Positions 11,701 to 36,408 of a DNA stretch of 64,000 nt are shown here, one piece after another. Both the position numbers and the translations under genes were made by a program. Origin of the DNA: Planctomycetales bacterium 10988. GTDB lineage: Bacteria > Planctomycetota > Planctomycetia > Pirellulales > Pb10988. How positions within the stretch are numbered: position 1 is the stretch's first letter; the number at the start of each line of letters is the position of its first letter. The DNA lies in NCBI GenBank assembly GCA_009664345.1, contig CP043547.1:3934709-3998708 (forward strand). Direction: 5' to 3'. The notes beneath the pieces were generated by a model. The model did not search any database. It was not told the origin of the DNA and worked only from the letters and a program-made list of their open reading frames with translations.

Positions 11701-11949
11701 GGTTCCTTGGCGACGTTCTTCCGACCAAATCCCCATACTGATCGCCGGAATGAAAATCAGCATCAGCATCGGCAGGACTTGATTGAGTTGATCGAAGTTG
11801 GCCAAGTTGGCATTAAAAAATTCATTCGGCCAAAAGGCGGCAAACCCCGCCAACAGGACGAACAAACAGATAAAGACATAGCCAGTTGGATTGCTGAAGT
11901 AACTGGTGAAGTTGCGTTTGAAAATCGCAAACGTCGTATTCAAATTCAT
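8776..11949 (-). CDS. ABC-2 permease fused to GldG-like domain
   Basis: A two-part membrane protein of 1,057 residues. Residues 1-250 form a six-helix ABC-2 permease (GldF type; SMGIWSEERRQGTDELILTL is the conserved cytoplasmic loop). Further hydrophobic segments at about 262-280, 302-321 and 331-346 lead into a large extracytoplasmic GldG/ABC_transp_aux domain. A charged coiled coil rich in Gln and Glu spans about 900-1010, and a final helix (LPIFPLALGLLVFLI) precedes a basic C-terminus. In Bacteroidota gliding systems GldF and GldG are separate proteins; here they are one chain. With the ATPase at 12135-12878 it should form a complete exporter or membrane-remodelling complex, substrate unknown. 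Outside gliding bacteria such clusters are widespread, so gliding cannot be inferred. Confidence 0.9.
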   Translation of the reverse strand: MNLNTTFAIFKRNFTSYFSNPTGYVFICLFVLLAGFAAFWPNEFFNANLANFDQLNQVLPMLMLIFIPAISMGIWSEERRQGTDELILTLPAADVDVVLGKYLASVAIFTVALLFSTPLVYTLSELGTPDPYLLLGNFIGYWIVGLAMLAVGMVASFLTANLTVAFILGVVFNAPLVFLAYSDVIFQDPLFARQIQEFSIAQQFEPFGRGVLTFSSFVYFISIILVSLYLCMVMIGRRHWSGRNKTSGGLITNWLISTVLIIGLIALIVWQAKVVLDAVWAGQANQIFWLQHAGIFLAWLMLTLIVSWFIQQKGEHFFVRTVALIVIAVNVMVLSNQLTWRWDISQEQLSSLSPQSLQLIDTLKPHPSLVGPGDRSEESFSGDKTLSDDNGAYVGARLRFTSGGLKDKSRRITSYDGKEQRFAFDNAFDAVPKRGDRFVIERPPVRVEAFISPEVPEQYVQTRLNLITTLQELKARAGNQLILNIHPTLPLSEEAAQAEDQYGIAPRNVQSSNRGTVTVEEMFLGVAIHSGTERVEIPFFDRGIPVEYELARSIATVSQQTRRKIGVVDTDVSMYGQFSMQGATPDQAIIEELEKQYEVEQVSPTEPISSEYDALLVVQPSSLGPDEMNNLINAIERGIPTALFEDPFPFIDTSVPASSQPRRAPNAGGMMGMMNQGGPPPEKGDITKLWDLLGIYYDPQDIVYEKYNPFPMFAQLPDEFVFVTNSGEERKDSFNADSKITKGLQNVLFVFPGYLNQRNDSKMEFSPLVRTGDRSGYVMYDDVVVQTQFGGQSINPRRIEEYNPVGQEYILATKITGKVDEITPPTSTENEEGSEEGEETEEKKDLEKKSDEINVVLVSDIDLLYREFFDMRARGQDPNAPIAMDFDNVPFVLNVLDSLAGDERFFEIRSRRRAHRTLEAFEKRTEQARLEAESQILDYNQEFQVKQQELQSNFNEQLEDIRKRTDLSDLEKMQRINLMQQTGQNQLEEEKERLERELQREVEKIERDLALQTRKLQSQFKLRALSILPIFPLALGLLVFLIRRIRETQGVSSSRLR

Positions 11950-11976
11950 CGTTGATACTGCTCGATATCCAAAGGT

Positions 11977-12134
11977 TTAAGTTGATTCAAGGTTAGATGC
12001 AAAAGGATTTTCTTTTGATTCTTTTCTGCCAAGGGAAACGATTTCGTCTCCCGGAAAATCCTTGGTTCTCACGAAGTAGAACAGGGCGGCAACAATAAGG
12101 GGGAGAAGCCAAAGCGGGCTTTTCTCAAGAAACG
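11977..12134 (-). other. Start-less membrane ORF after the ABC ATPase; possible -1 frameshift tail
   Basis: The gap between the ATPase and permease genes is not empty. In the -1 frame relative to the ATPase, an open frame runs from inside that gene (12186) to TAA at 11977. It encodes SLAFLEKSPLWLLPLIVAAL then FYFVRTKDFPGDE, a plausible single membrane helix with a charged tail. It has no ATG, GTG or TTG before the helix. The ATPase ends GAA AAA GTA GCC TAG, so a slip on the A-run would join the ATPase to this helix. It could instead be the remnant of a small gene, a leaderless frame using a rare start, or a sequencing indel. Confidence 0.35.
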
Positions 12135-12878
12135 CTAGGCTACTTTTTCCGGCGTTGCCGATGGATCGGTCAATTCGGCAAAGTGATCATCCAGCGTTTT
12201 GCCATCTTTTTGTAGCTCCGCCGGGGTTCCATCAAAAGCCAAGCGGCCTTCGCTGATGAACACCACGCGATCGCACATCGCATCGACTTCTTGCAGAATG
12301 TGGGTAGAAAGCAGAATCGTTTTGCTTTGGCCCAAGTGGCGGATTAAGTCGCGAACTTCGCGAATTTGATTCGGGTCCAGCCCGGCGGTAGGTTCGTCAA
12401 GAATGAGGACATCGGGTTCATGCAGCAAGGCCTGAGCCATGCCCACCCGTTGCCGATACCCTTTGGAAAGCTTGCCGATCGGCTTGCCCAGGACTTGCTT
12501 TAAAGCACATCGCTGGATCACATCGGCGATTCGCTTGCGGCGGTAGGCACCCGAGAGCCCTCGGGCATCCGCAAAGAAATGCAGGGAATTGAGCGGCGTC
12601 ATATCGGGATAAAGAGGGCCGTTTTCCGGCAGATAGCCCAAGTGTTTCGAGCCTTGAAGTCGCTGGGTTGTCATTTCGTAGCCGGCCAACCGGGCGGAAC
12701 CACGCGATGGTCGCAGATAACCCGTGAGGAGCTTCATGGTCGTACTCTTCCCGGCCCCGTTCGGACCGAGGAAGGCGACGACTTGCCCTCGCGGAATCTG
12801 GAAAGTCACATTCTGAATGGCGGCGAATTTCCCGTAAAATTTACTAAGGCCTTGGGCCTCGATCATCAGATCACTCAT
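12135..12878 (-). CDS. ABC transporter ATP-binding protein (GldA-like)
   Basis: The ATPase of the ABC-2 exporter encoded downstream. It is 247 residues, the usual length of a stand-alone ABC-2 ATPase. Visible motifs are Walker A GPNGAGKST (about 38-46), the Q-loop region LPENGPLYPDMTP, the signature LSKGYRQRVG, Walker B VLILDEPTAGLD and the switch histidine in LLSTHILQEVD. It binds ATP at the membrane and should pair with the permease half of the GldFG-like protein. It is the first gene of the cluster. The C-terminal codons lie on an A-run after which a membrane-helix frame continues (see 11977-12134). Confidence 0.92.
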   Translation of the reverse strand: MSDLMIEAQGLSKFYGKFAAIQNVTFQIPRGQVVAFLGPNGAGKSTTMKLLTGYLRPSRGSARLAGYEMTTQRLQGSKHLGYLPENGPLYPDMTPLNSLHFFADARGLSGAYRRKRIADVIQRCALKQVLGKPIGKLSKGYRQRVGMAQALLHEPDVLILDEPTAGLDPNQIREVRDLIRHLGQSKTILLSTHILQEVDAMCDRVVFISEGRLAFDGTPAELQKDGKTLDDHFAELTDPSATPEKVA

Positions 12879-17599: not shown

Positions 17600-20500
17600 A
17601 TGTGGAACCGCCCGTTCTTTCAATCCTCAACCTCCCCCGCCTACATCGACCGTGATACCGTTTTGCATTTGGAGAGTTTAGAAGACCGTTACCTGCTCGC
17701 GGCGGACTTCACGATCATTGACATTAACCAAACCCCTTTTGGTTCGAGCCCAAGCGAAGTTACCCAAGTCAATGGGAGCTTCTTCTTTGCGGCCAACGAC
17801 GGTCTCAATGGAAGAGAGCTTTGGGTTAGCGACGGGACTTCGGCAGGGACTCAGATTGTCAAAGATATCGAGACGGGGAATTCTGGGTCGTATCCTGGGG
17901 ACTTAACAAACGTCAATGGGACACTTTTCTTCACGGCGGATGAGAGTACTTATGGCTTTTCGCTTTGGAAAAGTGATGGCACCTCCGTCGGCACGCAGCA
18001 TGTCTATACGATTAATTCCGGCTACAGCAATTTTCCCAACAGTGTCTTAGAGAATGTGAATGGGACGCTCTTTTTCGAAGGTCGTTCCGATAGCGAAGGC
18101 TATGAGCTTTGGAAGAGTGACGGAACTTCCGCCGGCACGATGCTGGTGAAGGAGATTCGCCCCGGTTCAGCTAGTGCCTATATCGATCAGATGCAAAATG
18201 TGAACGGGACCCTCTTCTTCGGAGCTACCGATGGCAGCTCTGGGAACGAACTTTGGAAGAGTGATGGCACTTCCGCCGGGACAGAATTCGTCGCGGAGAT
18301 TCGTCCAGGTGCTCCTGGTTCCTACCCGAGTCAATTTGTCAATATGAATGGGACCCTCTTTTTTAGTGCTAGCGATGGGAGCTTCGGTTCGCAACTTTGG
18401 AAAAGTGACGGGACCTCGGGCGGTACGGAGACGGTCGCGATTATCAATCTAACCGGGGCCTATCCCTACTCCTTGGAAAATGTGAATGGGACTCTCTTCT
18501 TTGCGGCGAACAATGGGACGCACGGTTCGGAACTGTGGATGAGTAACGGTTCTAGTGCCGGAACGTTCCTGGTGGCCGATATTCAAAGTGGAAGCGGTTC
18601 TTCTTCTCCCTCTTTTTTGACCAATGTCGATGGCACCCTCTTTTTTGTCGCCAATGATGGCAATTCCGGGGATGAACTTTGGAAAAGCGATGGCACTTCC
18701 GTCGGTACGGTCTTGGTAGAAGACCTGAACCCTGGTTCAGAAAGCTCCGGACCTTCCAGCTTGTCCAACTTTGATGGTACCCTGTTCTTCAGTATTGTCT
18801 CGGAAAGTTATGGGCGAGAACTCTGGACGACCAATGGAAATTCTGGAGGGGCTGAACTTTTTAAAGAGATCAATGAAGGGACCAGTGGATCGTTTCCTGA
18901 TGAGCTGGTGAATGTGAATGGCACACTCTTCTTCGAAGCAAACGGTGGAAGTTACGGCAATGAACTCTGGATGACGGATGGAACAACGGTTGGAACCGTC
19001 TTAGTGAAGGATATTCGCCCAGGCACAAGTAGTTCCAGCCCCGAACGGCTTGCGAATGTGAACGGGACGCTCTTCTTTGAGGCCAATGATGGAAGTTATG
19101 GTAGAGAGCTTTGGATGAGTAACGGGACTTCTGCCGGGACCATGTTGGTGGCCGATATCCGTGCCGGTAGCACTGGCTCTTTTCCAGATTTCCTTGTGAA
19201 TGTGAATGGGACGCTCTTTTTTGAAGCGAATAATGGGAGCTACGGCAGTGAACTCTGGATGAGTAACGGCACTTCCGCCGGGACCATGCTGGTGGCCGAT
19301 ATTCGAGCGGGTAGCGGCAGTTCCTTTCCCGATCAACTTGTGAATGTGAATGGGACGCTCTTCTTCGAGGCCAATGATGGAAGCTACGGCAATGAACTTT
19401 GGATGAGTAACGGCACATCCGCCGGGACCGTGCTGGTCAAGGATATTCGTGCCGGTAGCCTCAGCTCTTTTCCCAATCAACTTATGAATGTGAATGGGAC
19501 ACTCTTCTTTGGAGCATCTGATGGTAGCTCCGGCAGTGAACTCTGGATGAGTAACGGCACTTCCGCCGGGACCATGCTGGTGGCCGATATTCGAGCGGGT
19601 AGCGGCAGTTCTAATCCCGATCAACTTGTGAATGTAAATGGGACGCTCTTCTTCGAAGCGAATGGTGGAACCTACGGCTATGAGCTTTGGATGAGTGATG
19701 GGACCTCCGCCGGCACGGTCCTCGTGAAAGATATCGAGCCAGGAAGCTACAGTTCCTATCCTTCAGACTTGGCGAATGTGAATGGAACGCTCTTCTTCAG
19801 CGCGAATACCGAAGAGCTCGGCAGAGAACTCTGGACCAGCGATGGCACTTCCACTGGCACAATACTTGTCCGAGATATCTTTGGAGGGCCACAAAGTTCC
19901 TATCCTGCTAATTTGACAAACATGAATGAGGCGCTCTTCTTTAGGGCCACCGATTCCCTACGGGGGGGTGAACTCTTCCTCTTGGACCTGACGCTTACGC
20001 CGCTCTTGGTAACCGGATCGGATCAAGGTTCCGGCGAAGTGAAAGTCTTTGATTCCAGCGGCACGGAACTTTACAACTTCTTCCCCTTCACCGAACCGTT
20101 CACCGGCGGGATTCGCGTTGCCACCGGAGATATTAACGGGGACGGAGTGATGGACATCGTCACCGGAGCCGGACCCGGTGGTGGGCCGCGGGTGAGTGTC
20201 TTTGATAGTGAAACCGGACTCTTGATCACCGGCGGACTAGCGGACTTCTTCGCCTATGATCCTTCGATTACCGTCGGGGTTTTTGTGGCCGTTGGTGATG
20301 TGAATAACGACGGCTTCGATGACATCATCACCTCCGCCGATGCCGGGGGCGGTCCGCATATCAAGGTCTTCAATGGTCAAGACGGTTCGATCATCACCGA
20401 GTTCTATGCCTATGCCCCGACCATCACCGTCGGGGTTCGCATTGCTTCCGGGGATGTCGATGGCGATGGCTTCGCGGAAGTGATTACCGCACCGGGGCCG

Positions 20501-21121
20501 GGTGGCGGTCCGCACGTTCGTGTCTTCGATGGCATGACCGGCTTGCAGAAAGAAGGAGCCGCGACGAACTTCTTCGCCTATGACCCGGCCTTCGTGGGCG
20601 GCGTTTATATTGCCTCAGGTGATGTGAATAACGACGGCTTCGATGACATCATCACCGGGGCGGGAGCCAGCGGCGGTCCACATGTGAAGGTGTTTGATTC
20701 AACGGATTTCTCGCTGATTCAGAACTTCTTCGCCTATGATCCCAGCTTCACCGGCGGAGTGCGGGTTGGCTCGACCGATGTGAATGGTGATTTCTTTGAC
20801 GACATCCTCACGACGCCGGGACCGACCGGCGGTCCACATACGCGGGCCTTTAGCGGCGTGGATTTGGCGGACTTGTCGAACTTCTTTGCCGGTTCCCCGA
20901 CGAACTTCGATGGGCTGTTTGTCGCTGGTGGCTTGACCCCGGAGGCAGACCTTCCCCCTGGTCCAGCTTCAAGCCCCTTTTCTTCCGCGGTCGTGGTGAC
21001 GCCCGAGGATACAACCTTGGAAGAGATCGCTCCGAAGAAATCATGGTATGACGAAGTCGACGAGTTCTATCAATCGGCTGAAGAGATCGACAAGCTCTTC
21101 AGCGGTCTCGGCATCGAATAA
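17600..21121 (+). CDS. ELWxxDGT repeat protein with VCBS-like domain (paralog 1)
   Basis: A 1,173-residue, probably secreted or surface protein. Residues 21-36 (VLHLESLEDRYLLAAD) match the LEPR-XLL-type N-terminal motif common in large planctomycete extracellular proteins. From about residue 62 there are 15 repeats of about 48 residues, each with the core ELWxSDGTSAGTxLVxDI and ending NVNGTLFF, then a degenerate sixteenth. Residues about 800-1110 contain five GDxNxDGxxDI(I/V)T...GGPHVxVF(D/N) units with calcium-type Asp loops, like VCBS/FG-GAP beta-propellers. The C-terminus ends with SWYDEVDEFYQSAEE and IDKLFSGLGIE, shared with both paralogs. There is no classical cleavable signal peptide. 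It is the first of three tandem paralogs, with its own promoter and terminator. An adhesive or sensing surface role is only a guess. Confidence 0.9.
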   Translation: MWNRPFFQSSTSPAYIDRDTVLHLESLEDRYLLAADFTIIDINQTPFGSSPSEVTQVNGSFFFAANDGLNGRELWVSDGTSAGTQIVKDIETGNSGSYPGDLTNVNGTLFFTADESTYGFSLWKSDGTSVGTQHVYTINSGYSNFPNSVLENVNGTLFFEGRSDSEGYELWKSDGTSAGTMLVKEIRPGSASAYIDQMQNVNGTLFFGATDGSSGNELWKSDGTSAGTEFVAEIRPGAPGSYPSQFVNMNGTLFFSASDGSFGSQLWKSDGTSGGTETVAIINLTGAYPYSLENVNGTLFFAANNGTHGSELWMSNGSSAGTFLVADIQSGSGSSSPSFLTNVDGTLFFVANDGNSGDELWKSDGTSVGTVLVEDLNPGSESSGPSSLSNFDGTLFFSIVSESYGRELWTTNGNSGGAELFKEINEGTSGSFPDELVNVNGTLFFEANGGSYGNELWMTDGTTVGTVLVKDIRPGTSSSSPERLANVNGTLFFEANDGSYGRELWMSNGTSAGTMLVADIRAGSTGSFPDFLVNVNGTLFFEANNGSYGSELWMSNGTSAGTMLVADIRAGSGSSFPDQLVNVNGTLFFEANDGSYGNELWMSNGTSAGTVLVKDIRAGSLSSFPNQLMNVNGTLFFGASDGSSGSELWMSNGTSAGTMLVADIRAGSGSSNPDQLVNVNGTLFFEANGGTYGYELWMSDGTSAGTVLVKDIEPGSYSSYPSDLANVNGTLFFSANTEELGRELWTSDGTSTGTILVRDIFGGPQSSYPANLTNMNEALFFRATDSLRGGELFLLDLTLTPLLVTGSDQGSGEVKVFDSSGTELYNFFPFTEPFTGGIRVATGDINGDGVMDIVTGAGPGGGPRVSVFDSETGLLITGGLADFFAYDPSITVGVFVAVGDVNNDGFDDIITSADAGGGPHIKVFNGQDGSIITEFYAYAPTITVGVRIASGDVDGDGFAEVITAPGPGGGPHVRVFDGMTGLQKEGAATNFFAYDPAFVGGVYIASGDVNNDGFDDIITGAGASGGPHVKVFDSTDFSLIQNFFAYDPSFTGGVRVGSTDVNGDFFDDILTTPGPTGGPHTRAFSGVDLADLSNFFAGSPTNFDGLFVAGGLTPEADLPPGPASSPFSSAVVVTPEDTTLEEIAPKKSWYDEVDEFYQSAEEIDKLFSGLGIE
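17783..19931 (+). repeat. Fifteen tandem coding repeats of about 144 bp
   Basis: DNA repeats encoding the ELWxxDGT units. Units 10-13 are the most alike and share long stretches such as GTGAATGTGAATGGGACGCT, suggesting recent internal duplication. Outer units are more diverged. Comparable arrays occupy about 21569-23714 and 25322-27570 in the two paralogous genes. Confidence 0.85.
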
Positions 21122-21148
21122 GCCCTCTTCAAATCATTTCAACCATTC

Positions 21149-21187
21149 AAGGGACAAGGTACTTCTAGAGTATTTTGTCCCTTTTTT
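21149..21187 (+). terminator. Terminator after ELWxxDGT paralog 1
   Basis: A stem AAGGGACAA pairing with TTGTCCCTT, extended by an inner GTACT/AGTAT pairing, followed by a T-run. The same GGGACAA...TTGTCCC stem ends the next paralog. Confidence 0.85.
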
Positions 21188-21312
21188 ACCTTTGAGAGCT
21201 TGAAAGGGAAGGAAATTCTGTTGAGAAAGACCATTCTAAAGGCTACAAAATTCTGTTTGTTTAAGCCGTTTCCTTTGTATTTTGGATGCGCAGGAAAGAG
21301 AGGGTTTGCCGC

Positions 21313-21340
21313 TTGACCTAAAACCAAGGAGGGATATAAC
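21313..21340 (+). promoter_or_regulatory. Sigma70-type promoter of the second ELWxxDGT gene
   Basis: TTGACC at 21313, a 16-base spacer, then TATAAC at 21335: the same arrangement as at 17527-17554. The spacer sequences differ, so the hexamers look selected and not merely inherited. Confidence 0.7.
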
Positions 21341-21385
21341 GACTAGCATGCCAGTGTTTTCTTTTCAATTACGAGGTCAAAGCTC

Positions 21386-24300
21386 ATGTGGAATCGTCCG
21401 TTCTTCCAATCCTCCACCTCCCCCTCCAAAATCGACCTTGACACCCATTTACATCTAGAAACTCTCGAAGACCGTTACTTGCTCGCGTCGGACTTCACGA
21501 TCATTGACATCAATCAAACTCCTTTTGGTTCGAGCCCAACCGAAATCACCCAAGTCAATGGGAGTTTCTTCTTCGCGGCCAACAATGGTCTCGATGGAAG
21601 AGAGCTTTGGGTGAGCGACGGGACTTTGGCAGGGACTCAGATTGTCAAGGATATCGGGCCGGGGAATACGGGGTCGTATCCTGAATACTTGACCAATGTG
21701 AATGGGACACTCTTCTTCACGGCTTTGGAGAGTTCGTATGGCATCTCACTTTGGAAAAGTGATGGGACTTCCGCCGGCACGCAACGTATCCAAACGGTTA
21801 CTAGTGGCTACGCTTGTGCTCCCTCGATTGAAATTGCGAATGTGAATGGCACGGTCTTCTTTGGGGCAAACAGTGGAAGTTACGGCTTTGAACTCTGGAA
21901 GAGTGATGGAACTTCCGCCGGTACGATGCTGGTGAAAGATATTCGAGCTGGGAGCAGTAGCTCCTACCCGAGGGATTTTGAGAATGTGAATGGGACGCTC
22001 TTCTTCGAAGCATTCGAAAGTAGCTACGGTCGAGAACTTTGGAAGAGTGATGGCACTTCCGCTGGGACCGTATTGGTCAAGGATATTCGAGCGGGAACCA
22101 GTAGTTCTAGCCTTTCCTATCTTACGAACATGAATGGCACGCTCTTCTTCGCAGCAAACGATGGAAGCTCCGGTTCGCAACTTTGGAAGAGTGATGGGAC
22201 CTCGGGCGGTACAGAGACGGTTGTTTTGATCCAGCCATTCGATCCCGATCCCGAATTCTTGGAAAATGTAAACGGAACCTTATTCTTTGCGGCGAACAAT
22301 GGGACACACGGTACGGAACTGTGGATGACTGACGGTTCTAGTGCCGGAACGTTCATGGTGTCCGATATTCGTAGTGGTAGCAGCTCTTCTTATCCAGAAT
22401 TTTTGACCAATGTCGATGGCACCCTCTTTTTTGTCGCCAGTGATGGCAGTTCTGGGTATGAGCTTTGGAAAAGCGATGGGACTTCCGTCGGCACGGTCTT
22501 GGTAGAAGACCTGAACCCTGGTTCCGAAAGCTCCGAACCTACCGACCTGGCCAACTTCAATGGCACTCTGTTCTTCAGCTTGTTCACGGAAAATTATGGG
22601 GAAGAGTTATGGACCAGCAATGGAAATTCTGGAGGGACAGAACTCTTTAAAAATATCAACGAGGGGACCAGGGGATCGTTTCCTGATGATCTAGCGAATG
22701 TGAATGGGACGCTCTTCTTTGCTGCAAACGATGGATCTTATGGCAATGAACTCTGGATGACCGATGGAACCACGGCCGGAACCATGTTGGTGAAGGACAT
22801 TCGATCTGGTCCTGCCAATGCATACCCCGATCAGCTGGTGAATGTGAACGGGACGCTCTTCTTCGAAGCAAACGATGGAAGCAATGGCCCAGAACTTTGG
22901 ATGAGTGATGGGACTTCCGCCGGCACGGTCCTGGTGAAAGACATTCGAGCTGGGGGCAGTGGTTCCTTTCCTAATGATCTAGCGAATGTGAATGGGACGC
23001 TCTTCTTTGAAGCGAGGGAAGGGAGCACTGGCCAAGAACTTTGGATGAGTGACGGGACTTCCGCCGGCACGGTCCTGGTGAAAGACATTCGATCTGGCAG
23101 CCTTAGTTCCTATCCTAGTCAGCTGGTGAATGTGAATGGGACGCTCTTCTTCTCTGCATTCGAAAGTAGCTACGGTCGAGAACTTTGGAAGAGTGATGGA
23201 ACTTCCGCCGGCACGGTCCTGGTGGCGAATATTCAGGCCGGCTCCTCTAGCTCCAGCCCCGATGATTTCGCGAATGTGAATGGCACGCTCTTCTTCGCAG
23301 CGAGTATTAGCAGCACTGGGCAAGAGCTTTGGAAGAGTGACGGGACTTCCGCCGGGACCGTCTTGGTTAAGGATATTCGAGCCGGAAGCTACGGTTCTTT
23401 TCCTGACTCGCTTACGAATGTGAACGGCACGCTCTTCTTCGAGGCGAACGATGGAACCAGTGGCGATGCACTTTGGATGAGTGATGGGACCTCCGCTGGG
23501 ACAGTCAAGGTGGCAGATTTCGAGGAAGCAAACTATGGGGTCTATCTGGATCTGGCCAATGTGAATGGGACGCTCTTCTTCGGGGCATCTACCGAGGGGT
23601 TCGGTAAGGAACTCTGGACCAGTGATGGGACCTCGGCGGGTACGAGACTTGTCCGAGATATCTTCGGAGGGCCACGAGGTTCCTATCCTGCTGATTTCAC
23701 AAACATGAATGGAACTCTCTTCTTTAGGGCCACCGATTCCCTACGGGGGGGTGAACTCTTCCTCTTGGACCTGACGCTTACGCCGCTCTTGGTGACCGGG
23801 TCGGATCAAGGTTCCGGCGAAGTGAAAGTCTTCGATTCCAGCGGGACGGAACTCTATAATCTCTTCCCCTTCACTGAACCCTTTACGGGCGGGATTCGCG
23901 TTGCCACCGGAGATATTAACGGGGACGGAGTCATGGACATCGTCACTGCGGCCGGACCCGGCGGCGGGCCGCGGGTGAGTGTCTTCGATAGCGAAACCGG
24001 ACTCTTGATCACCGGTGGACTGGCGGACTTCTTTGCCTATGATCCTTCGATTACTGTCGGGGTCTTCGTCGCCGTTGGTGATGTGAATAACGATGGCTTC
24101 GATGACATCATCACTTCCGCCGATGCCGGTGGCGGTCCGCATATCAAGGTCTTCAACGGTCAAGACGGTTCGATCATCACCGAGTTCTATGCTTATGCCC
24201 CCACGATCACCGTCGGGGTTCGCATTGCTTCCGGGGATGTCGATGGCGATGGCTTCGCGGAAGTAATCACCGCACCGGGGCCGGGTGGCGGTCCGCACGT

Positions 24301-24904
24301 TCGTGTCTTCGATGGCATGACCGGCCTTCAAAAAGAAGGAGCCGCGACGAACTTCTTTGCCTACGATCCGGCCTTCGTGGGCGGCGTTTATATTGCCTCA
24401 GGTGATGTGAATAACGACGGCTTCGATGACATCATCACCGGGGCAGGAGCCAGCGGTGGCCCGCATGTGAAGGTGTTTGATTCAACCGATTTCTCGCTGA
24501 TTCAGAACTTCTTCGCGTACGATCCCAGCTTCACCGGCGGGGTGCGTGTCGGTTCCGCCGATGTGAATGGTGACTTCTTTGATGACATCATCACCACCCC
24601 AGGACCAACGGGCGGTCCTCATACACGGGCCTTTAGCGGCGTGGATTTGGCGGACTTGTCGAACTTCTTCGCCGGATCGCCGACGAACTTCGATGGGCTG
24701 TTTGTCGCTGGTGGCTTGACCCCAGAAGCAGACCTTCCCCCCGGTCCAGCTTCGAGCCCCTTCTCTTCTTCGGTCGTAGTAACTCCTGAGGATACAACCT
24801 TGGAAGAACTCGCTCCGAAGAAATCTTGGTACGACGAAGTAGACGAATTCTATCAATCCGCGGAAGAGATCGACAAACTCTTCAGTGGACTCGGCATCGA
24901 ATAA
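21386..24904 (+). CDS. ELWxxDGT repeat protein with VCBS-like domain (paralog 2)
   Basis: A tandem duplicate of the gene at 17600, 1,172 residues. It has the same N-terminal MWNRPFFQSSTSP block and LHLETLEDRYLLAS motif, again exactly 15 ELWxSDGT repeats plus a degenerate last one, then the VCBS/FG-GAP-like domain and the same C-terminal SWYDEVDEFYQSAEE tail. The VCBS half is nearly identical in DNA and protein to paralog 1, whereas most ELWxxDGT units differ, which points to recent gene conversion or domain-specific diversification. It probably sits at the cell surface; its ligand is unknown. It has its own promoter and a terminator with the same stem as paralog 1, so it is likely transcribed alone. 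Confidence 0.9.
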   Translation: MWNRPFFQSSTSPSKIDLDTHLHLETLEDRYLLASDFTIIDINQTPFGSSPTEITQVNGSFFFAANNGLDGRELWVSDGTLAGTQIVKDIGPGNTGSYPEYLTNVNGTLFFTALESSYGISLWKSDGTSAGTQRIQTVTSGYACAPSIEIANVNGTVFFGANSGSYGFELWKSDGTSAGTMLVKDIRAGSSSSYPRDFENVNGTLFFEAFESSYGRELWKSDGTSAGTVLVKDIRAGTSSSSLSYLTNMNGTLFFAANDGSSGSQLWKSDGTSGGTETVVLIQPFDPDPEFLENVNGTLFFAANNGTHGTELWMTDGSSAGTFMVSDIRSGSSSSYPEFLTNVDGTLFFVASDGSSGYELWKSDGTSVGTVLVEDLNPGSESSEPTDLANFNGTLFFSLFTENYGEELWTSNGNSGGTELFKNINEGTRGSFPDDLANVNGTLFFAANDGSYGNELWMTDGTTAGTMLVKDIRSGPANAYPDQLVNVNGTLFFEANDGSNGPELWMSDGTSAGTVLVKDIRAGGSGSFPNDLANVNGTLFFEAREGSTGQELWMSDGTSAGTVLVKDIRSGSLSSYPSQLVNVNGTLFFSAFESSYGRELWKSDGTSAGTVLVANIQAGSSSSSPDDFANVNGTLFFAASISSTGQELWKSDGTSAGTVLVKDIRAGSYGSFPDSLTNVNGTLFFEANDGTSGDALWMSDGTSAGTVKVADFEEANYGVYLDLANVNGTLFFGASTEGFGKELWTSDGTSAGTRLVRDIFGGPRGSYPADFTNMNGTLFFRATDSLRGGELFLLDLTLTPLLVTGSDQGSGEVKVFDSSGTELYNLFPFTEPFTGGIRVATGDINGDGVMDIVTAAGPGGGPRVSVFDSETGLLITGGLADFFAYDPSITVGVFVAVGDVNNDGFDDIITSADAGGGPHIKVFNGQDGSIITEFYAYAPTITVGVRIASGDVDGDGFAEVITAPGPGGGPHVRVFDGMTGLQKEGAATNFFAYDPAFVGGVYIASGDVNNDGFDDIITGAGASGGPHVKVFDSTDFSLIQNFFAYDPSFTGGVRVGSADVNGDFFDDIITTPGPTGGPHTRAFSGVDLADLSNFFAGSPTNFDGLFVAGGLTPEADLPPGPASSPFSSSVVVTPEDTTLEELAPKKSWYDEVDEFYQSAEEIDKLFSGLGIE

Positions 24905-24935
24905 GCCGTTATTACATTTAGACGAACCCATTTGG

Positions 24936-24972
24936 AGGGACAAAATGCTGCAAGCGTCTTGTCCCTTTTTTA
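24936..24972 (+). terminator. Terminator after ELWxxDGT paralog 2
   Basis: AGGGACAA pairs with TTGTCCCT around a loop of about 15 bases, followed by a T-run. It uses the same stem as the terminator at 21149. Confidence 0.85.
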
Positions 24973-25153
24973 TTGTTTTCAAGATCTAGGCTGGCTAAAT
25001 ACCATAAAGCGGATGTTTCAATAAGGGAGATGAAGAATCGAAGTGCTTCTCAAAGAAGGCTTTACCTCGTATCGGGGAAAGACTAACTTAAGTTCCATTC
25101 TCGCTTATTTTCCGACCCTATCCAAACTTTGCGGGCTGCAAGGAAGAATTGTC

Positions 25154-28100
25154 ATGGCATGGACCAACTGGTTTACGGAACGGAATGAACGTCGCGAACA
25201 ACCGACTCCCCTTCAACTCGAACAGCTTGAGAGCCGCTATCTGCTCACGGCGGAGCTCTCGATGATTGATATCAATCTGGTTGGTCGCCATTCCGATCCA
25301 GAGAATTTTGTCGAGGTCGGGGGAAAGTTTTTCTTTTCCGCCAATGATGGACAAAATGGAGATGAACTGTGGTTTAGTGATGGCACTTCCTTCGGGACAT
25401 TCATGGTCAAAGATATTCGAGCCGGAGCCACGAGTTCGAATCCGTCCAATCTTACCAATGTCAATGGGACCGTCTTCTTTTCCGCGAACGACGGAAGCTA
25501 CGGATACGAACTCTGGAAAACAGATGGCAGTTCGGCGGGCACGCAACTCGTGAAAGACCTCCTTCCCGGAAGCAGCGGCTCCAGCCCGAGCGATATGGAG
25601 AATTTGAACGGCACGCTCATGTTCCGCGCGTACAACGCTTCGGTTGGGTTTGAACTTTGGTCAAGTGATGGAACCTCGGGCGGGACGCAGCTCGTCGCGG
25701 ATATCAATCCAGGCTCGTCGAGTTCTTCGATCACCGACACCTTCAACATGGATGGGACGCTCTTTTTCGGAGCCAATGACGGTTCAGATGGCAATGAACT
25801 GTGGATGAGTGATGGAACCAGCGGCGGTACCAAGATGGTCGTTGATCTCAATCCTGGCAGTTTCAACGCGTTTCCGGATGGCTTTGCCAATGTGAATGGC
25901 ACCCTCTTTTTCAGTGCCACCGTATCCGGCTACGGACAAGAATTGTGGAAGTCGGATGGTACCTCCAGCGGGACCGAGCTGGTGAAAGATATTCGCGCCG
26001 GCGGTTCCGGTTCCGAGACGGAGGAGTTGGTGAATGTCAATGGTACCCTCTTCTTTGCCGCCAACGGGGGAACCTACGGACAAGAACTCTGGAAGTCGGA
26101 TGGCACTTCCGGCGGGACGGGACTCGTCAAGGACATTCGAGCCGGAAGCCTAGGTTCGTCGATTGATCACATGGTGAATTTCGATGGGACCCTCTTTTTC
26201 ACGGCCTATACCGAATCCTATGGGACCGAGCTATGGGCGAGTCAAGGCGATTCGGCCAGCACGCAACTTATCAAGGATATTCTCCCTGGCGAAACAAGTT
26301 CGCAGGTTGGCTATCTTCTCGTGGCCAGTGGGACGCTCTTCTTCCGAGCGAATGGGGGAACCTTCGGGCGGGAGCTTTGGCAGTCAGATGGGACTTCCGG
26401 GGGAACCGAAATTTTCAAGGATATCAACAGTCTGGGAAGTCTGGGTTCGGACGCCTCCTCGTTCGTGGACTACAGTGGAACCGTCTTCTTCGCTGCTAAC
26501 AAAGACCTCTTAGGCAAAGAGCTTTGGATGACCGATGGCACAACGCTCGGCACAAAACTTGTCAAAGACATCCGCCCCGGCGCTTACGGGAGTTCCCCCG
26601 ATGATCTGATCGTCATGAACGGGACCATTTTCTTCAGAGCCAATGACGGAATCAACGGCAGTGAACTCTGGATGACCGATGGAACTTCCGCCGGAACGCA
26701 ACTCGTCAAGGATATTCGAAGCGGAAGTGAAAGTTCCTCTCCAAGTGAATTCGCGACCTTGAATGGAACGCTCTTCTTTGCCGCCAATGATGGAACTTAT
26801 GGGAGCGAGCTGTGGAAGAGTGACGGCACCTCCGCGGGAACCATGCTGGTGAAGGATATACGTCCGGGAAGTACCGGCAGTTCTCTCTTTGGATTGGTGG
26901 AAATCAACGGAACGCTCTTCTTCCGAGCAACCGATGGAGCAACGGGAACGGAAATGTGGAAGAGTGATGGCACCTCCGCAGGTACGGAGCTCGTCAAAGA
27001 CATCCGATCGGGAGGGAGTAGCTCCTTTGCAGGCTCCTTTGCAAACTTAAATGGTACCATTTTCTTCGCTGCCGATGACGGATCAGACGGAAGTGAACTC
27101 TGGACGAGCGATGGAACCTCCGCCGGAACGCAACTCTTCGCCGACCTTTACCCTGGTTCGGGTTCCTCAAGTCCAAACGGAATGACCGAGGTGAATGGAA
27201 CGCTCTTCTTCCGGGCAAATAATTTGACCAACGGGTCAGAGCTTTGGATGACCGATGGCACCTCGATGGGAACGACGCTTGTCAAAGATATCAACACCCT
27301 TTCCAAAGGGGCAGGCTCGTTTCCAAGCGAGTTTACCAATGTCAACGGCACCCTCCTCTTCCGAGCGGGGACCAATAGCAGTAGCTATGGCGTCGAGCTT
27401 TGGGCCAGCGATGGCACTTCTTCGGGTACGCAACTCGTCAAAGATTTACGTCCAGGCAATAACAGCAGTTTCTCTTATGGCTCGTATCCGAATTACCTGA
27501 CGAATATCAATGGAACTCTCTTCTTCGCCGCGAACGATGGCGTCAATGGGAATGAACTTTGGATGTTCGATCTAATGGACGAGACGCCGAAGATCGTGAC
27601 CGGGTCGGATAGCGGTTCGGGAATTGTCCGCGTTTTCGACGGAACCGGCAGCGAGCTGCTCAATTTCTTCCCTTATACCCCAGCCTTTACCGGAGGCGTT
27701 CGCGTCGCGACTGGGGATATCAATGGCGACGGCGTTCTTGATATCGTCACGGCGGCAGGACCCGGAGGCGGCCCGCATGTCCAGGTCTTCGATAGTGAGA
27801 CCGGGGCCTTGATCACCGGGGGAACCAATAACTTTTATGCCTATGCCCCGAATATTACCGTCGGCGTCTTTGTGGCAGTCGGTGATGTAAACAAGGATGG
27901 CTTTGATGACATTATCACCTCGGTTGATGCCGGTGGCGGTCCGCATATCAAAGTCTTCAACGGTCAGACCGGCGCGGTTATTGTCGAGTTTTATGCGTAT
28001 GCCCCCAATGTCACCGTCGGCGTTCGCGTCGCAGCCGGGGATATCGATGGCGACGGGGCTGCCGAAATCATCACCGCTCCCGGAGCCGGTGGCGGTCCGC

Positions 28101-28732
28101 ACATTCGCGTCTTCGAGGGAATGACCGGCGCTCAGGCTTCCGGCCCGGCGACGAACTTTTATGCGTATGCTCCGAATGTCTTCACCGGGGTTTACGTGGC
28201 GGCGGGCGATGTGAATAACGACGGCTACGACGATATCATCACGGCACCAGGTACCGGTGGTGGTCCGCATATTCAGGTCTTTAGTTCCGCCGATGCGAGT
28301 CTTTTGCAAAACTTCTATGCTTATGATCCGGCCTTCACCGGAGGCGTTCGCGTTGGAGCGGCGGATATCAACCTCGATGGCTTTGCCGACATCCTCACCG
28401 TGCCGGGACCGTCGGGCGGTCCGCATACGCGGGCCTTCAGCGGGGTCGACTTGGCCGATCTTTCGAACTTCTATTCCGGTTCCCCGAGCAGTGTCGATGG
28501 CCTGTTCATTGCTGGAGGAGTCAGCCGCCTGCCGACTTCCAGCATCGGCGCGCTTCCGCTGTCGGCACCCTTCGCAGGTCCAACTTCCAGCATGATCGTC
28601 TCTTCGACTTCGGAAGAAACGCCAGCGGAGCCAATCTTCGAAGCGAAGAAAAAATCGTGGTACGAAGATGCCGATGAGTTCTATCAATCCGCCGAAGAAA
28701 TTGACAAGCTCTTTAGTGGGCTAGGGATTTAG
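25154..28732 (+). CDS. ELWxxDGT repeat protein with VCBS-like domain (paralog 3)
   Basis: The third and most diverged member, 1,192 residues from the ATG at 25154. The frame opens 37 codons earlier, but this ATG has AAGGA nine bases upstream and starts MAWTNWFTERNE, giving a length like its paralogs. It has the LEPR-XLL-type motif LEQLESRYLLTAE, again 15 full ELWxxDGT repeats plus a degenerate one, and the VCBS/FG-GAP-like domain in which the linker reads FYAYAPN where the others have FFAYDP. The C-terminal tail SWYEDADEFYQSAEE then IDKLFSGLGI is kept. I do not see the TTGACC/TATAAC promoter here. The stop codon is only two bases from the convergent phosphoesterase stop, so no separate terminator fits. 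Confidence 0.9.
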   Translation: MAWTNWFTERNERREQPTPLQLEQLESRYLLTAELSMIDINLVGRHSDPENFVEVGGKFFFSANDGQNGDELWFSDGTSFGTFMVKDIRAGATSSNPSNLTNVNGTVFFSANDGSYGYELWKTDGSSAGTQLVKDLLPGSSGSSPSDMENLNGTLMFRAYNASVGFELWSSDGTSGGTQLVADINPGSSSSSITDTFNMDGTLFFGANDGSDGNELWMSDGTSGGTKMVVDLNPGSFNAFPDGFANVNGTLFFSATVSGYGQELWKSDGTSSGTELVKDIRAGGSGSETEELVNVNGTLFFAANGGTYGQELWKSDGTSGGTGLVKDIRAGSLGSSIDHMVNFDGTLFFTAYTESYGTELWASQGDSASTQLIKDILPGETSSQVGYLLVASGTLFFRANGGTFGRELWQSDGTSGGTEIFKDINSLGSLGSDASSFVDYSGTVFFAANKDLLGKELWMTDGTTLGTKLVKDIRPGAYGSSPDDLIVMNGTIFFRANDGINGSELWMTDGTSAGTQLVKDIRSGSESSSPSEFATLNGTLFFAANDGTYGSELWKSDGTSAGTMLVKDIRPGSTGSSLFGLVEINGTLFFRATDGATGTEMWKSDGTSAGTELVKDIRSGGSSSFAGSFANLNGTIFFAADDGSDGSELWTSDGTSAGTQLFADLYPGSGSSSPNGMTEVNGTLFFRANNLTNGSELWMTDGTSMGTTLVKDINTLSKGAGSFPSEFTNVNGTLLFRAGTNSSSYGVELWASDGTSSGTQLVKDLRPGNNSSFSYGSYPNYLTNINGTLFFAANDGVNGNELWMFDLMDETPKIVTGSDSGSGIVRVFDGTGSELLNFFPYTPAFTGGVRVATGDINGDGVLDIVTAAGPGGGPHVQVFDSETGALITGGTNNFYAYAPNITVGVFVAVGDVNKDGFDDIITSVDAGGGPHIKVFNGQTGAVIVEFYAYAPNVTVGVRVAAGDIDGDGAAEIITAPGAGGGPHIRVFEGMTGAQASGPATNFYAYAPNVFTGVYVAAGDVNNDGYDDIITAPGTGGGPHIQVFSSADASLLQNFYAYDPAFTGGVRVGAADINLDGFADILTVPGPSGGPHTRAFSGVDLADLSNFYSGSPSSVDGLFIAGGVSRLPTSSIGALPLSAPFAGPTSSMIVSSTSEETPAEPIFEAKKKSWYEDADEFYQSAEEIDKLFSGLGI

Positions 28733-31359: not shown

Positions 31360-34338
31360 ATGAGTCAGGCAGCAGCGGCCAACGATATCTGGCAGTTATT
31401 GCAAGAAAGTGGGCTAATGACCCACGAACAGGCCCAATATTATTACCAAGAATTTCAACAGCAACATCCCGGTTCCAACTCTAAGAAAGAGCTGGCGATT
31501 TGGCTGATTAAGGCGAACTTGGTCAGCCGATTTCAGATGAAAGTGCTGCTTTCCGGGCAGACGGGGCCGTTCGATTTCCATGGCTATCGACTTTACGACA
31601 AGCTGGAAGAAGGGGCCTTGGCGGATACCTACCGGGCCGTTCATTTGCAAACCGGGCATGTAGTCGGCTTACAATTCCTTGATGGAGACGTGAGCAACGA
31701 CTCCGGCCAAGTTCAAGAGATCGAACGTAAAGTCCGACTTCTCAGTAACTTACGAACGGATCATCTTTCGCGATGCTATCATTTCTTGGATTTAGAAGCT
31801 TATAAACTCATCGCGTTCGAGAATCTGGAAGGGCAAACCTTGGCGGATGCCTTGGAGGAACACGGCCCTTATTCCATGACTGAAGCGAGTCATTGGGTCT
31901 GGCAGATTGCCAAAGGTCTCGATGAAATGCTGCCGGTGGCCGGAGCGAGTGGAGAAATCCGCCCCGAAACGATTTGGATCGACGATCAAGGAAATGCCAA
32001 ATTGATGCTCTTTCCGCTTGATCGTGCCCCTGGTGAACCGCTGGTGCGGACGACTCCGAAGGAAATTCTCGAGGCCCATCCGGACCAAATCCCTTACATG
32101 GCCCCGGAAACCATTCGCGGCAAGGCCGATGATGCCCGTAGCGATCTCTATAGTCTGGGCTGTGTTTTTTATGAACTGTTGACTGGCGAACCGCCCTTTG
32201 GCTGGGAACCTTTGCAAGAAGTCGCCAAGCAACACGTCAAGCAGAAACCGACCTTGGCCCATGAAAAACATGGCGACGTTCCCCCGGCGATTTCGCAGTT
32301 GATCGACTACTTGCTGGCGAAAGACCCCTCGCAACGCTACCAAGAACCGGAGCATTTCGCCGAGGCCCTGGTTCCTTACATGCAAGCGTCGATGCTGCAT
32401 GCTCCGCCGCAAGCACCGACCGAAGCCAGCATGGCCTACGATGAATGGATCGCCGTGTCTTATCCTCCGCTGACGCCGGGGACTTTGGAAACCGGCATGT
32501 TCCCGCCCTCGCCCACCGCGGATGAACCCGCTTTTGCCCCAGCGGCCCCTGCGAATAACGGAGGGGTTCAGCTAACGAACGCCCCTGCCGGCACCTCCGG
32601 CGGTTCGTCGTTTGTGAGTGAAGATGAAGAGTTCCAACGTCGTCGTCAGGAGCAAATCAAAAAGAAGAAGCAAGGGCAACTCTACTCGGCTATCGGGGCC
32701 GGCGTCGTCCTCTTCTTGATTGCTGGCTATTTTCTCTTTGGAACAGGAAGTTCACCGGAACCGACTGATCCCACGCAAGTCGCCGAAAACGACTCGACTC
32801 CAGAAACAACGCAGACCAGCGATAGTACTTCTACCGAAACGGCCGAACCCAAGGAAACCGGGCCGGAGATCGAACAAGTCGCCCTTTACGAAGAAATCTT
32901 CGAGCCGGAAAAGCCACAGTGGGAATCGCCCACCCGGGGAACGCCGCTCGATTTGACCTATCTTCCCAATGGCGTGCAACTCATCCTGGCGGTGCGGCCT
33001 GCCGAGATCATGGCCGAGCCGGAAGCCGAACTGACTTGGCGAGCCTTGGGGCCGTTTGGGATGGTCGCTCGCAGCTACTTGGAAGCTTACAGCGGCACGG
33101 CGTTGGAAAACATCGACCAAGCCCTGATCGGTTTGATGCCCAACGGGGCGATGCCCCCCAGCATTTCCTTGGTCATCAAAACCATCGCTCCGGTGCCGAA
33201 CTCCGTACTCTTGGCCAGTTGGGGAAATCCAGAACCGACTGAGATCGGCAGCAATCCGGCTTACCAAGCGAATGGAAAAGTCTTCTTTCTTCCGCCGGGC
33301 AAGGCGGGCAAAGTGATCGCCATCACCCCGCAAACGTATGCTTCCGATTTGGAGATGGGGGCTCCGCCGCTGTTGCGAAAAGAGCTGGAGCAACTCCTCG
33401 AAACGACCGATTCCAAGCGACAATTCACGATGCTCTTCGCCCCGAACTTTCCGTTTTCTTCAGGGAAAGCTCTCTTCTCTGGACCGATGACGAAGATCAA
33501 AGACAGCTTTGATCGGCTGATGCGTTTGCCCAACAATCAATTCGCTCAAGCGGGGCTCATAAGTCTGCACGTCGATGAAATGGGTTTCTATACCGAGATT
33601 CGCATGCATGGCGGCTCTGCCATTCAACCGAACGAACTGGCCGATTATCTCCGTGAGTCGCTGGTCGATCTGCCGAATGAACTCTTGATGTTCTACGATC
33701 CGCCGGAGGGCAGCGACGCCGCCAAGGTCCGTACGATTCCGACGAAGTTCACGCAACCGATTGTCGGGCGTTATCCGCGAATGCTCTTTGCTTGGACCGC
33801 CTATCTCCGCTCTGGCACTGCTGGTCGGCATGTGAAGCTTTCTAGTTTGCTGCCAGGCAAGGCCGCTCATAATCTCGTCTTGGCCTCTCAACTGGCTTTG
33901 CGAGACCCAGGTATCGTCGTGCAAACGCAGCCGGTCGAAGTCGATCCGATGGAACAATGGAAGAGCCGCTCGTTGGTCGAACGCCTCGAAGGAATGCCCT
34001 ACAAATTGGTCATTGGTCGGGATTCGCTCGATCGCGTGATGGCTCAAATCTCGGAGGATACCGAAATCCCGATCCGCCTCGAAGGGGGCGATTTGCAATT
34101 GGAAGGGATCACGCAAAACCAATCTTTCGGCCTCGAGATGGAAGAGCCCAAGCCGCTCGGCGAAGTGATCACCGAAATCATGATGCGGTGTAATCCCGAC
34201 AAGACGACGACCGCCCCTTCGCAAGATACCCAAAAACTGGTTTTTGCGGTTGCTCCCGATCAGAAGACAATCGTGATCACCACGCGGGGCAAAGCCAAGG
34301 AACGTGGAACCCCGTGGCCGGTCTTCGACGTCCAGTAA
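31360..34338 (+). CDS. Membrane pseudokinase (serine/threonine kinase-like)
   Basis: A 992-residue membrane protein with an N-terminal helical region, a Ser/Thr-kinase fold at about 75-340, one membrane helix (AIGAGVVLFLIAGYFLFG, about 444-461) after a Lys-rich stop, and a large extracytoplasmic part. The kinase fold keeps the APE motif (YMAPE, 246-250) and DARSDLYSLGCVFYELLTG, but every catalytic signature is changed: the VAIK Lys is Leu (VVGLQFL), HRDLKPEN reads SGEIRPET, and DFG reads LFP. It should not phosphorylate and may act as a sensor or scaffold. The extracytoplasmic end (GRDSLDRVMAQI to the C-terminus) resembles a secretin/TonB short domain, also found in the next gene. Start ATG with AGGAAA upstream. 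Confidence 0.85.
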   Translation: MSQAAAANDIWQLLQESGLMTHEQAQYYYQEFQQQHPGSNSKKELAIWLIKANLVSRFQMKVLLSGQTGPFDFHGYRLYDKLEEGALADTYRAVHLQTGHVVGLQFLDGDVSNDSGQVQEIERKVRLLSNLRTDHLSRCYHFLDLEAYKLIAFENLEGQTLADALEEHGPYSMTEASHWVWQIAKGLDEMLPVAGASGEIRPETIWIDDQGNAKLMLFPLDRAPGEPLVRTTPKEILEAHPDQIPYMAPETIRGKADDARSDLYSLGCVFYELLTGEPPFGWEPLQEVAKQHVKQKPTLAHEKHGDVPPAISQLIDYLLAKDPSQRYQEPEHFAEALVPYMQASMLHAPPQAPTEASMAYDEWIAVSYPPLTPGTLETGMFPPSPTADEPAFAPAAPANNGGVQLTNAPAGTSGGSSFVSEDEEFQRRRQEQIKKKKQGQLYSAIGAGVVLFLIAGYFLFGTGSSPEPTDPTQVAENDSTPETTQTSDSTSTETAEPKETGPEIEQVALYEEIFEPEKPQWESPTRGTPLDLTYLPNGVQLILAVRPAEIMAEPEAELTWRALGPFGMVARSYLEAYSGTALENIDQALIGLMPNGAMPPSISLVIKTIAPVPNSVLLASWGNPEPTEIGSNPAYQANGKVFFLPPGKAGKVIAITPQTYASDLEMGAPPLLRKELEQLLETTDSKRQFTMLFAPNFPFSSGKALFSGPMTKIKDSFDRLMRLPNNQFAQAGLISLHVDEMGFYTEIRMHGGSAIQPNELADYLRESLVDLPNELLMFYDPPEGSDAAKVRTIPTKFTQPIVGRYPRMLFAWTAYLRSGTAGRHVKLSSLLPGKAAHNLVLASQLALRDPGIVVQTQPVEVDPMEQWKSRSLVERLEGMPYKLVIGRDSLDRVMAQISEDTEIPIRLEGGDLQLEGITQNQSFGLEMEEPKPLGEVITEIMMRCNPDKTTTAPSQDTQKLVFAVAPDQKTIVITTRGKAKERGTPWPVFDVQ

Positions 34339-34416
34339 GAGCCAGTGGTCGAAACTTAACAGAAGCGGAGAAACACTTGGTAGAAGTGATTCTCAAGACC
34401 TTTTGACCACAAACTC
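34339..34416. repeat. MITE-like element, copy A
   Basis: A segment of about 78 bp with ends GAGCCAGTGGTCGAAAC and CTTTTGACCACAAACTC. Its inner inverted ends (GTGGTC.../...TTTTGACCAC) and flanks match copies at 52426-52500 and 55288-55366, whereas the middle differs. It sits between the pseudokinase and zinc-ribbon genes. Confidence 0.7.
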
Positions 34417-34494
34417 GAAGTAACGCGACATTTCGCATCGATGCAGGGCTGCTTCGAACGAAACATCCGCTCATTTGAAATAGCGAAGGATCGT

Positions 34495-36408
34495 ATGAGT
34501 ACCACGGGCAAACGACCGCTCTTCTTTGTCACCTGCACGACTTGCCAGGCTCGGATCAAGGTTTTGAATCACTCCGCCGTGGGCGAGATTCATAGCTGTC
34601 CGAAGTGTGGAAGCATGGTGCAACTCAGCCCTCCGCCTGGTTGGCAGCCCGGCCAAACCGTCGAGCCGGAAACCGCTTCACAGCCGGAAGCTCAACTTCA
34701 AACAAAGCAGCCCGCTCCGCATTCCTTGCCACCCTTGGAACAACCGGCGGAGATTCCCCGTTATCAAAAGATTCTCCTCGGCGTCGTCTCGGTCGGAGCG
34801 GCCGGCTTGGCCATCTGGGTGCTTGGCTATATTGTCATTACTCTCAACCGAGAACCGACTGTCACGCCGATCGCTTTGGAAGAAGCCTCCGTCGAGAACG
34901 AGTCAACGGAAGCGGAAACGTCCTCTTCTTCAGAGCCGGACGCTATGCCCAGCGTCGAGCAACTCGAAACGATCGCTCCTGAAGAAAAGACAGAAAGCGA
35001 GCCAATCCCCGCGAGTCTGGAATCAGCAGAACCTTCTGTAGCCACGGAGGTCGTAACCACGGAACCGGAAGAAACCCCAACTCCGACTAAACCGGCCAAT
35101 CCGCAGCAGATGTCGCTTGATGAGTTCCTTGAAAAACAGCAAGAGACGCCCACCGATCCGACCATGGAAACCGCCGAACAGCCGAGCGGCCCGCGTGTCT
35201 CTTTCCCACTGATGCCAACCTTACCCGAACAGCAGCAAGCCGAGGCGGAGGAAGCGGGAGATGCCGAAACGATTCAACTCTTGACTCGGGAGGAAGTCGA
35301 GCAACGGTTGAGCTTCGCGGTCGTCGGGTTGAAGTTTCGCCAGGTGCCGTTGATTGATGCGGTCGAGACTTTGTCGGCCATGGGCGGAGTCGCTTCGACT
35401 TTCGATCTTCCCGCGATGACCGAGTTAGGTGTGCCGCTGGATACACCGGTTTCCCTGCAAGTCAAAGGCGAGACAATCGCCGAAGCCCTCACGCAATTGC
35501 TGGAAGAGCAACGCCTCGGCTACGACATTCGTTCCGGCCAACTGGTGGTTACCAGCCGTGATCTGATTGAAACGGAACTTCAACAGCAAACGTATATGGT
35601 CGAAGACCTGCTCCCTTCCGGCTCGAACGGGACGCCTCTGGTCGAATGGCTCAAGGGTTTTCTTGCCCCGAATAGTTGGCAGAATGATCCCGAGGTCAGC
35701 ATGGAATTGTCGGGCATTCAACTCCTGGTCACGCATCGCCCTGCCGTGCATCGCGAGCTAGTCGAAACCTTGGCGAAGCTGCGACTTAGCCGAGATACGA
35801 CGGCCGTTGATCTTGAAATGAAGAAAAATTTCCCCCTCACGCCGCGTTTGCAACAGGCATCGGATGCCCTCTTGAAACCGTTGCGAATTAACTTCAGTGC
35901 CGTTCCGTTTAAACGCATTGTCGAGTATATCCAGGAGAAAACGGAATTCCGCGTTCTGGTCGATACGGTTGCCCTGGCGAAGTTGGGCCTCACGCCCGAT
36001 GCCGAGGCCAATATTCACACGCAACAACCTCAACCTTTGGCGGAAGTTTTGATTCAACTCCTTTCGCCGCTGGAGTGTGCCTATGTCGTCGTTGATGCGA
36101 AAACCATTCTGATCACCACGCAACAAGCCTTGCAAACTCGCACCGAAATTGAAGTCTATCCCTTGCGTTCCCTGCAACTTTCCGATCAGCAGCGGCAAGC
36201 AATCCTCGGGCGGCTGCGAGCGAGGATCTTTCCCGAGACTTGGTTCCCCACTGGCGATGCTTCACTGGCTTGGGATGAACCGAGTCAGACCCTCTTTGTG
36301 CGGAATCATCAACCTGCCCAAGCCCAAATCCTCCAGCTTTTCGAACAGGAAGAAGCCGCCCGCTCCGCCGAATCCACGGCTCTTTCGGAGGCCAGCGTCC
36401 CGCAGTAA
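34495..36408 (+). CDS. Zinc-ribbon membrane protein with STN-like domains
   Basis: A 637-residue protein with CTTC at 14-17 and CPKC at 35-38, forming a four-Cys zinc ribbon. One membrane helix follows (ILLGVVSVGAAGLAIWVL, about 93-117), then a Glu/Thr/Pro-rich linker and a C-terminal region with two repeats resembling secretin/TonB short N-terminal (STN) domains, for example LTREEVEQRLSFAVVGLKF and LRINFSAVPFKRIVEYIQ. The shared STN-like theme and position right after the pseudokinase suggest the two act together at the membrane, with a cytoplasmic ribbon and an extracytoplasmic sensor or docking domain. The frame opens 18 codons earlier, inside the repeat element region, but GAAGGA precedes the ATG at 34495. 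Function unknown. Confidence 0.75.
   Translation: MSTTGKRPLFFVTCTTCQARIKVLNHSAVGEIHSCPKCGSMVQLSPPPGWQPGQTVEPETASQPEAQLQTKQPAPHSLPPLEQPAEIPRYQKILLGVVSVGAAGLAIWVLGYIVITLNREPTVTPIALEEASVENESTEAETSSSSEPDAMPSVEQLETIAPEEKTESEPIPASLESAEPSVATEVVTTEPEETPTPTKPANPQQMSLDEFLEKQQETPTDPTMETAEQPSGPRVSFPLMPTLPEQQQAEAEEAGDAETIQLLTREEVEQRLSFAVVGLKFRQVPLIDAVETLSAMGGVASTFDLPAMTELGVPLDTPVSLQVKGETIAEALTQLLEEQRLGYDIRSGQLVVTSRDLIETELQQQTYMVEDLLPSGSNGTPLVEWLKGFLAPNSWQNDPEVSMELSGIQLLVTHRPAVHRELVETLAKLRLSRDTTAVDLEMKKNFPLTPRLQQASDALLKPLRINFSAVPFKRIVEYIQEKTEFRVLVDTVALAKLGLTPDAEANIHTQQPQPLAEVLIQLLSPLECAYVVVDAKTILITTQQALQTRTEIEVYPLRSLQLSDQQRQAILGRLRARIFPETWFPTGDASLAWDEPSQTLFVRNHQPAQAQILQLFEQEEAARSAESTALSEASVPQ

Follow-up and report, generated by a model that had tools for sequence, protein, structure and literature searches.

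What does the conserved sequence that ends three neighboring ELWxxDGT proteins do for them? The genes lie in tandem in a window of 64,000 nucleotides (the whole stretch of DNA analyzed; CP043547.1, positions 3,934,709 to 3,998,708) from Planctomycetales bacterium 10988. Their open reading frames (ORFs; window positions 17600-21121, 21386-24904, and 25043-28732, plus strand) all end SWY[DE][ED][VA]DEFYQSAEEIDKLFSGLGI(E) directly before the stop, and a linker rich in Pro, Ser, and Glu precedes this tail in each; a common tail behind a variable Pro/Ser linker, as described in a first-pass annotation of the locus, is thus present in all three. The features of the genes, in window coordinates, are as follows.

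17600..21121, plus strand: paralog 1 (LEPR-XLL, ELWxxDGT repeats, propeller, linker, tail)
17651..17710, plus strand: paralog 1, N-terminal LEPR-XLL / Planc_extracel export-type motif
19997..20932, plus strand: paralog 1, FG-GAP beta-propeller
20933..21034, plus strand: paralog 1, variable Pro/Ser/Glu-rich linker, 34 aa
21035..21118, plus strand: paralog 1, tail, KKSWYDEVDEFYQSAEEIDKLFSGLGIE (stop 21119-21121)
21386..24904, plus strand: paralog 2 (LEPR-XLL, ELWxxDGT repeats, propeller, linker, tail)
21440..21487, plus strand: paralog 2, N-terminal LEPR-XLL motif
23780..24715, plus strand: paralog 2, FG-GAP beta-propeller
24716..24817, plus strand: paralog 2, variable linker, 34 aa
24818..24901, plus strand: paralog 2, tail, identical in sequence to that of paralog 1 (KKSWYDEVDEFYQSAEEIDKLFSGLGIE; stop 24902-24904)
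25154..28732, plus strand: paralog 3 from its likely start, ATG 25154 (LEPR-XLL, ELWxxDGT repeats, propeller, linker, tail)
25202..25261, plus strand: paralog 3, N-terminal LEPR-XLL motif
27584..28519, plus strand: paralog 3, FG-GAP beta-propeller
28520..28645, plus strand: paralog 3, variable linker, 42 aa
28646..28729, plus strand: paralog 3, tail, KKKSWYEDADEFYQSAEEIDKLFSGLGI (stop 28730-28732)

Paralog 3 probably begins at the ATG at 25154 (MAWTNWF...), which matches the other tail-bearing proteins, and not at the GTG at 25043; the mechanically called ORF includes 37 extra codons upstream (window 25043-25154).

The tail is far commoner than the three copies from which it was first described. 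The genome of the organism, a single contig of 6.65 Mb, was searched with the 29-residue tail and contains it at 56 places (matches better than E = 2e-4); a profile built from 46 tails finds the identical 56 places, each with E of about 1e-13 or lower, before E jumps to 0.012 for the next match, a gap that rules out chance similarity. The copies comprise 55 large ORFs with the tail at their end and one pseudogene (genome position 6259815, minus strand) with an in-frame TAG. The tail, 28 residues long with the consensus KKSWxDEVDEFYQSAEEIDKLFSGLGI, is situated at the C-terminus of the host ORFs; the stop lies 0-2 residues past GLGI in most of these, exactly one residue past being itself the rule in most, and the last residues are damaged in a few (2576684, 3065934, and 3069839). 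Together the 55 host ORFs sum to about 200 kb, such that 3% of the genome is given over to proteins with the same end. Many hosts stand in tandem: for 32 of the 55, another host is less than 6 kb away. At five loci, identical insertion-sequence-like ORFs lie close to tail genes, and two tail loci have identical flanks, indicating a recent segmental duplication.

An FG-GAP propeller of ~312 residues is found directly before the linker in all 55 tail ORFs, and the unit common to the hosts is propeller, linker, and tail. The linker is about 35-119 aa long and rich in Ser, Pro, and Glu (43 of the 55 hosts measured). The bodies ahead of this unit differ: most contain ELWxxDGT repeats (TIGR04534, over cut-off with 912 bits in paralog 1 and 922 bits in paralog 3); in some, Big_12 Ig-like domains replace or accompany these repeats; and in two intact hosts (1659659 and 4755350) no domain besides the propeller is recognized, the body of the latter giving a sub-threshold pectinesterase-like match. 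Restriction of the tail to the ELWxxDGT family is ruled out by the Big_12 bodies and by those without recognized domains. The idea that the tail might occur on unrelated secreted proteins is therefore half right, since the bodies are different and not bound to ELWxxDGT but every host has the same FG-GAP propeller. The opposite possibility, that it belongs to one paralog family alone, likewise applies in part; the tail is free of ELWxxDGT and tied to the propeller.

Sequence identity along the C-terminal module drops in the linker and rises again in the tail. Mean pairwise identity is about 0.70-0.71 in the tail, 0.84 in its 11-column core (the last columns), and about 0.3-0.36 in the linker, compared with 0.22 when the linker is shuffled. 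Where tail residues are identical, 47% of codon pairs differ (57% would be expected at saturation); within the IDKLFSGLGI core, the codons for D, F, G, L, and I have reached or almost reached synonymous saturation. Such codon change around fixed residues indicates that the tail is held by selection on the protein, and it rules out a DNA-level repeat. We consider it very improbable that the tail is the mere end of a recently amplified gene, with no function of its own. Plain common descent would fit the presence of all copies in one genome, the propeller common to them, and the recent duplicates with identical flanks among them; the codon data contradict its neutral form, the residues being fixed despite near-saturated synonymous change, and the linker has diverged between two conserved parts.

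The propeller and tail are conserved to a comparable degree and co-occur strictly (55/55 ORFs), as expected if the tail were to pack on or close its own FG-GAP propeller and were conserved for folding. Several observations make this intramolecular role unlikely: the linker of about 35-119 residues aligns at close to random; propeller identity is barely tracked by tail identity, which is still 0.69 between hosts whose propellers are only ~50% identical; and a propeller 55% identical to those of the hosts exists without a tail in a giant LEPR protein (ORF start near 438998, minus strand; 7563-aa frame), where it sits at the N-terminus, right behind the LEPR motif. The helix is not a requirement of the propeller, given this tail-less example. 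The N-terminus of the same giant protein is common to several other giant LEPR proteins (frames of 3500-7700 aa).

The tail is acidic (net about -3) and amphipathic, with no hydrophobic stretch; its helical hydrophobic moment is 0.445 at 100 degrees, compared with 0.18 for shuffled sequence. In the AlphaFold model of the last 48 residues, a single helix extends from the W as far as the SG pair, with a pLDDT of about 72-84; for the propeller-linker-tail module, modeled from three sequences, the pLDDT is 35, too low to be informative. A fixed aromatic and aliphatic face on an amphipathic helix, carried by abundant and in many cases tandem paralogs (32/55), could allow the helix to bind its own copies in a bundle or coiled coil, so that the surface proteins would assemble as oligomers or a lattice; such a scheme does not require a separate partner. 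The strong acidity disfavors self-association of like helices, and we regard this homotypic role as quite unlikely. The tail has no match at useful significance in Pfam, NCBIfam, or the PDB, in agreement with the first-pass annotation, which recognized in it no described sorting signal, and the tail string has no occurrence in the open literature searched.

Short C-terminal homologies on many exported proteins, in a many-to-one arrangement, are also characteristic of the PEP-CTERM/exosortase, LPXTG/sortase, and GlyGly-CTERM/rhombosortase systems. C-terminal sorting signals are defined by a membrane helix and a terminal basic cluster (PMC3237569). In contrast, the tail does not have the order of signature, transmembrane helix, and basic cluster, its KK lying before an acidic amphipathic helix; it is always attached to one propeller, and no processing enzyme was identified. 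A signal of the cleaved-and-anchored type is disfavored because the tail has neither the membrane helix nor the terminal basic cluster. For homology confined to the C-terminal region, a criterion for sorting signals, the picture is mixed: the bodies differ, and every host has the 312-aa propeller next to the tail.

Dockerin-cohesin pairs have a C-terminal docking slot in common with the tail hosts, and some LEPR/ELW proteins of relatives have dockerin-like repeats below cut-off in that slot. The tail differs from dockerin in being a single helix of about 21 residues without Ca-binding loops; a Pfam search gave no match to dockerin (PF00404) in the tail, and two hosts give weak dockerin matches under the threshold, which fall inside the propeller or before it. 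The C-terminal domain of the T9SS (Por secretion) is likewise a C-terminal address on many surface proteins; the tail, by comparison, matches nothing in Pfam or NCBIfam. The T9SS domain is larger and built differently. Its different architecture has been remarked upon (PMC3237569).

All 49 readable host N-termini contain LExLExR, a LExLExRxLL-type motif (PF07595 / NF012209); paralog 1 scores 16.0 against the curated LEPR-XLL model, just below the cut-off of 17. This motif has been proposed as a planctomycete signal for export; in Tuwongella it occurs on proteins of the envelope fraction, and 8 of the 20 motif-bearing proteins detected in that organism were solely in the SDS-soluble fraction (PMC8567305). 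The tail hosts are probably exported, and by analogy with the Tuwongella proteome (PMC8567305) they may reside in the cell envelope or on the surface. The motif is on all readable tail proteins but is N-terminal, and it also occurs on at least 19 further ORFs of the same genome that do not have the tail, and in 12 of the 12 relatives searched, which are likewise tail-less. One of the tail-less LEPR ORFs ends in DUF4214 (Pfam), and several others appear similar by eye. Three tail-less LEPR proteins of this genome have at their ends a hydrophobic segment and basic residues, together with a short helix containing W/F (NWESEVEDFMAG, CWNSSVESLMQKL, and FARVENWLN), loosely like the first half of the tail.

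A C-terminal secretion signal of a type I-like kind, in which the helix would be required for translocation rather than anchoring, merits consideration. The HlyA type I signal depends on extreme C-terminal amphipathic helices on large proteins, as seen in the tail hosts (PMC8870123); the hosts are large beta-rich repeat proteins, and by eye they have no hydrophobic N-terminal signal peptide. However, type I signals are described as needing no defined sequence (PMC8870123), and the tail is strongly sequence-conserved; the hosts already bear an N-terminal export-type motif, and the motif-bearing ORFs without a tail (at least 19) would need a different route. No RTX repeats were seen in the hosts, the sole RTX match belonging to a relative and not to a tail protein, and a search of the genome for the type I adaptor (HlyD type, TIGR01843), which covered the adaptor only, gave a best score of 44.8 bits versus a cut-off of 208.65. 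We therefore consider a secretion signal improbable.

Our preferred reading, to which we give an even chance, is that the tail stays uncleaved and that a single lineage-specific partner recognizes this C-terminal helix in trans, so that the exported surface proteins are anchored or docked. Export would proceed by way of the N-terminal LEPR-XLL motif, the disordered linker would keep the helix off the FG-GAP propeller, and the helix would plug into an anchor or scaffold on the surface; one attachment point would thus serve dozens of adhesin-like bodies of different kinds. We prefer docking in trans because of the variable linker, the separable propeller, the conserved short amphipathic helix, the many bodies, and the N-terminal motif that already accounts for export. 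Against it, every tail comes with the propeller, and the two may therefore act together as a single functional unit. The sorting, anchoring, or docking role suggested in the first-pass annotation is accordingly favored by the many bodies, the position at the extreme C-terminus, the variable linker, the selection, and the export motif, and is weakened by the constant company of the propeller.

It is possible, though rather doubtful, that the tail represents a new class of address, a membrane-free, uncleaved amphipathic C-terminal helix directing 55 exported proteins of one planctomycete lineage to a single dedicated receptor for modular surface display; on this tentative reading, the surface-display system would be analogous but unrelated to the cohesin-dockerin or sortase systems. 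A lineage-specific address of this kind would be overlooked by searches built on the membrane-helix pattern. A conserved 28-residue tag on dozens of the very large LEPR-XLL surface proteins offers a small handle for fishing out the machinery with which planctomycetes transport and attach them.

Among the genomes sampled, the tail is in one genome only. It was not found among 38 mixed relatives or in 395 other genomes of the order; 391 genomes of the phylum gave no tail besides two weak matches, judged spurious and rejected as true tails, as they are not at a protein C-terminus; and a degenerate-pattern scan of 84,980 GTDB species, from which this genome is perhaps absent, gave none. The relatives drawn include no other member of its family, and the tail may thus range across that one family. 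The propeller is nearly private as well, with a weak partial match in one further genome of 149 from the phylum. ELWxxDGT proteins (TIGR04534), the repeats of which are present in most tail hosts, occur in 43 of 146 genomes of the order, and those of other genomes do not have the tail.

The C-terminal slot of the relatives' LEPR/ELW proteins is occupied by DUF4214, RTX repeats, dockerin-like repeats below the Pfam cut-off, or nothing recognizable. A wider C-terminal motif on the relatives' LEPR proteins, [DEH].[AVLIY]F[AGSTND].[LIFM], was found in 16 of 68 proteins of a first set (1.0 by shuffling) and was not upheld on held-out proteins (1 of 20; 0.25 by shuffling); a loose D-x-[AVL]-F-x-x-[LI]-like motif at these ends is a lead only. 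Of 196 genomes of the order, 35 encode a mostly single-copy LEPR family whose members often end in [AV]DY[VIL]F..[VI]G.W, a sequence that resembles the tail core. These ends were rejected as tail homologs (hhalign probability 17.7% over 11 columns, no profile support), and the likeness may reflect convergence or distant kinship.

No recurrent transport, processing, or partner gene was found among the neighbors of the tail genes, where only sulfatases and insertion sequences recur. With the tail in a single genome and neighbors of this kind, no co-occurring protease or transporter was found. The sulfatase genes are near tail-bearing genes at six loci. Within the window, an ABC ATPase precedes a protein in which ABC-2 membrane and ABC_transp_aux (GldG-like) parts are fused, at 8779-12878 on the minus strand, with no evidence tying these genes to the tail genes. 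At 31360-36408 on the plus strand, a Ser/Thr kinase (992 aa) precedes a 655-aa protein that contains a secretin/TonB short N-terminal domain.
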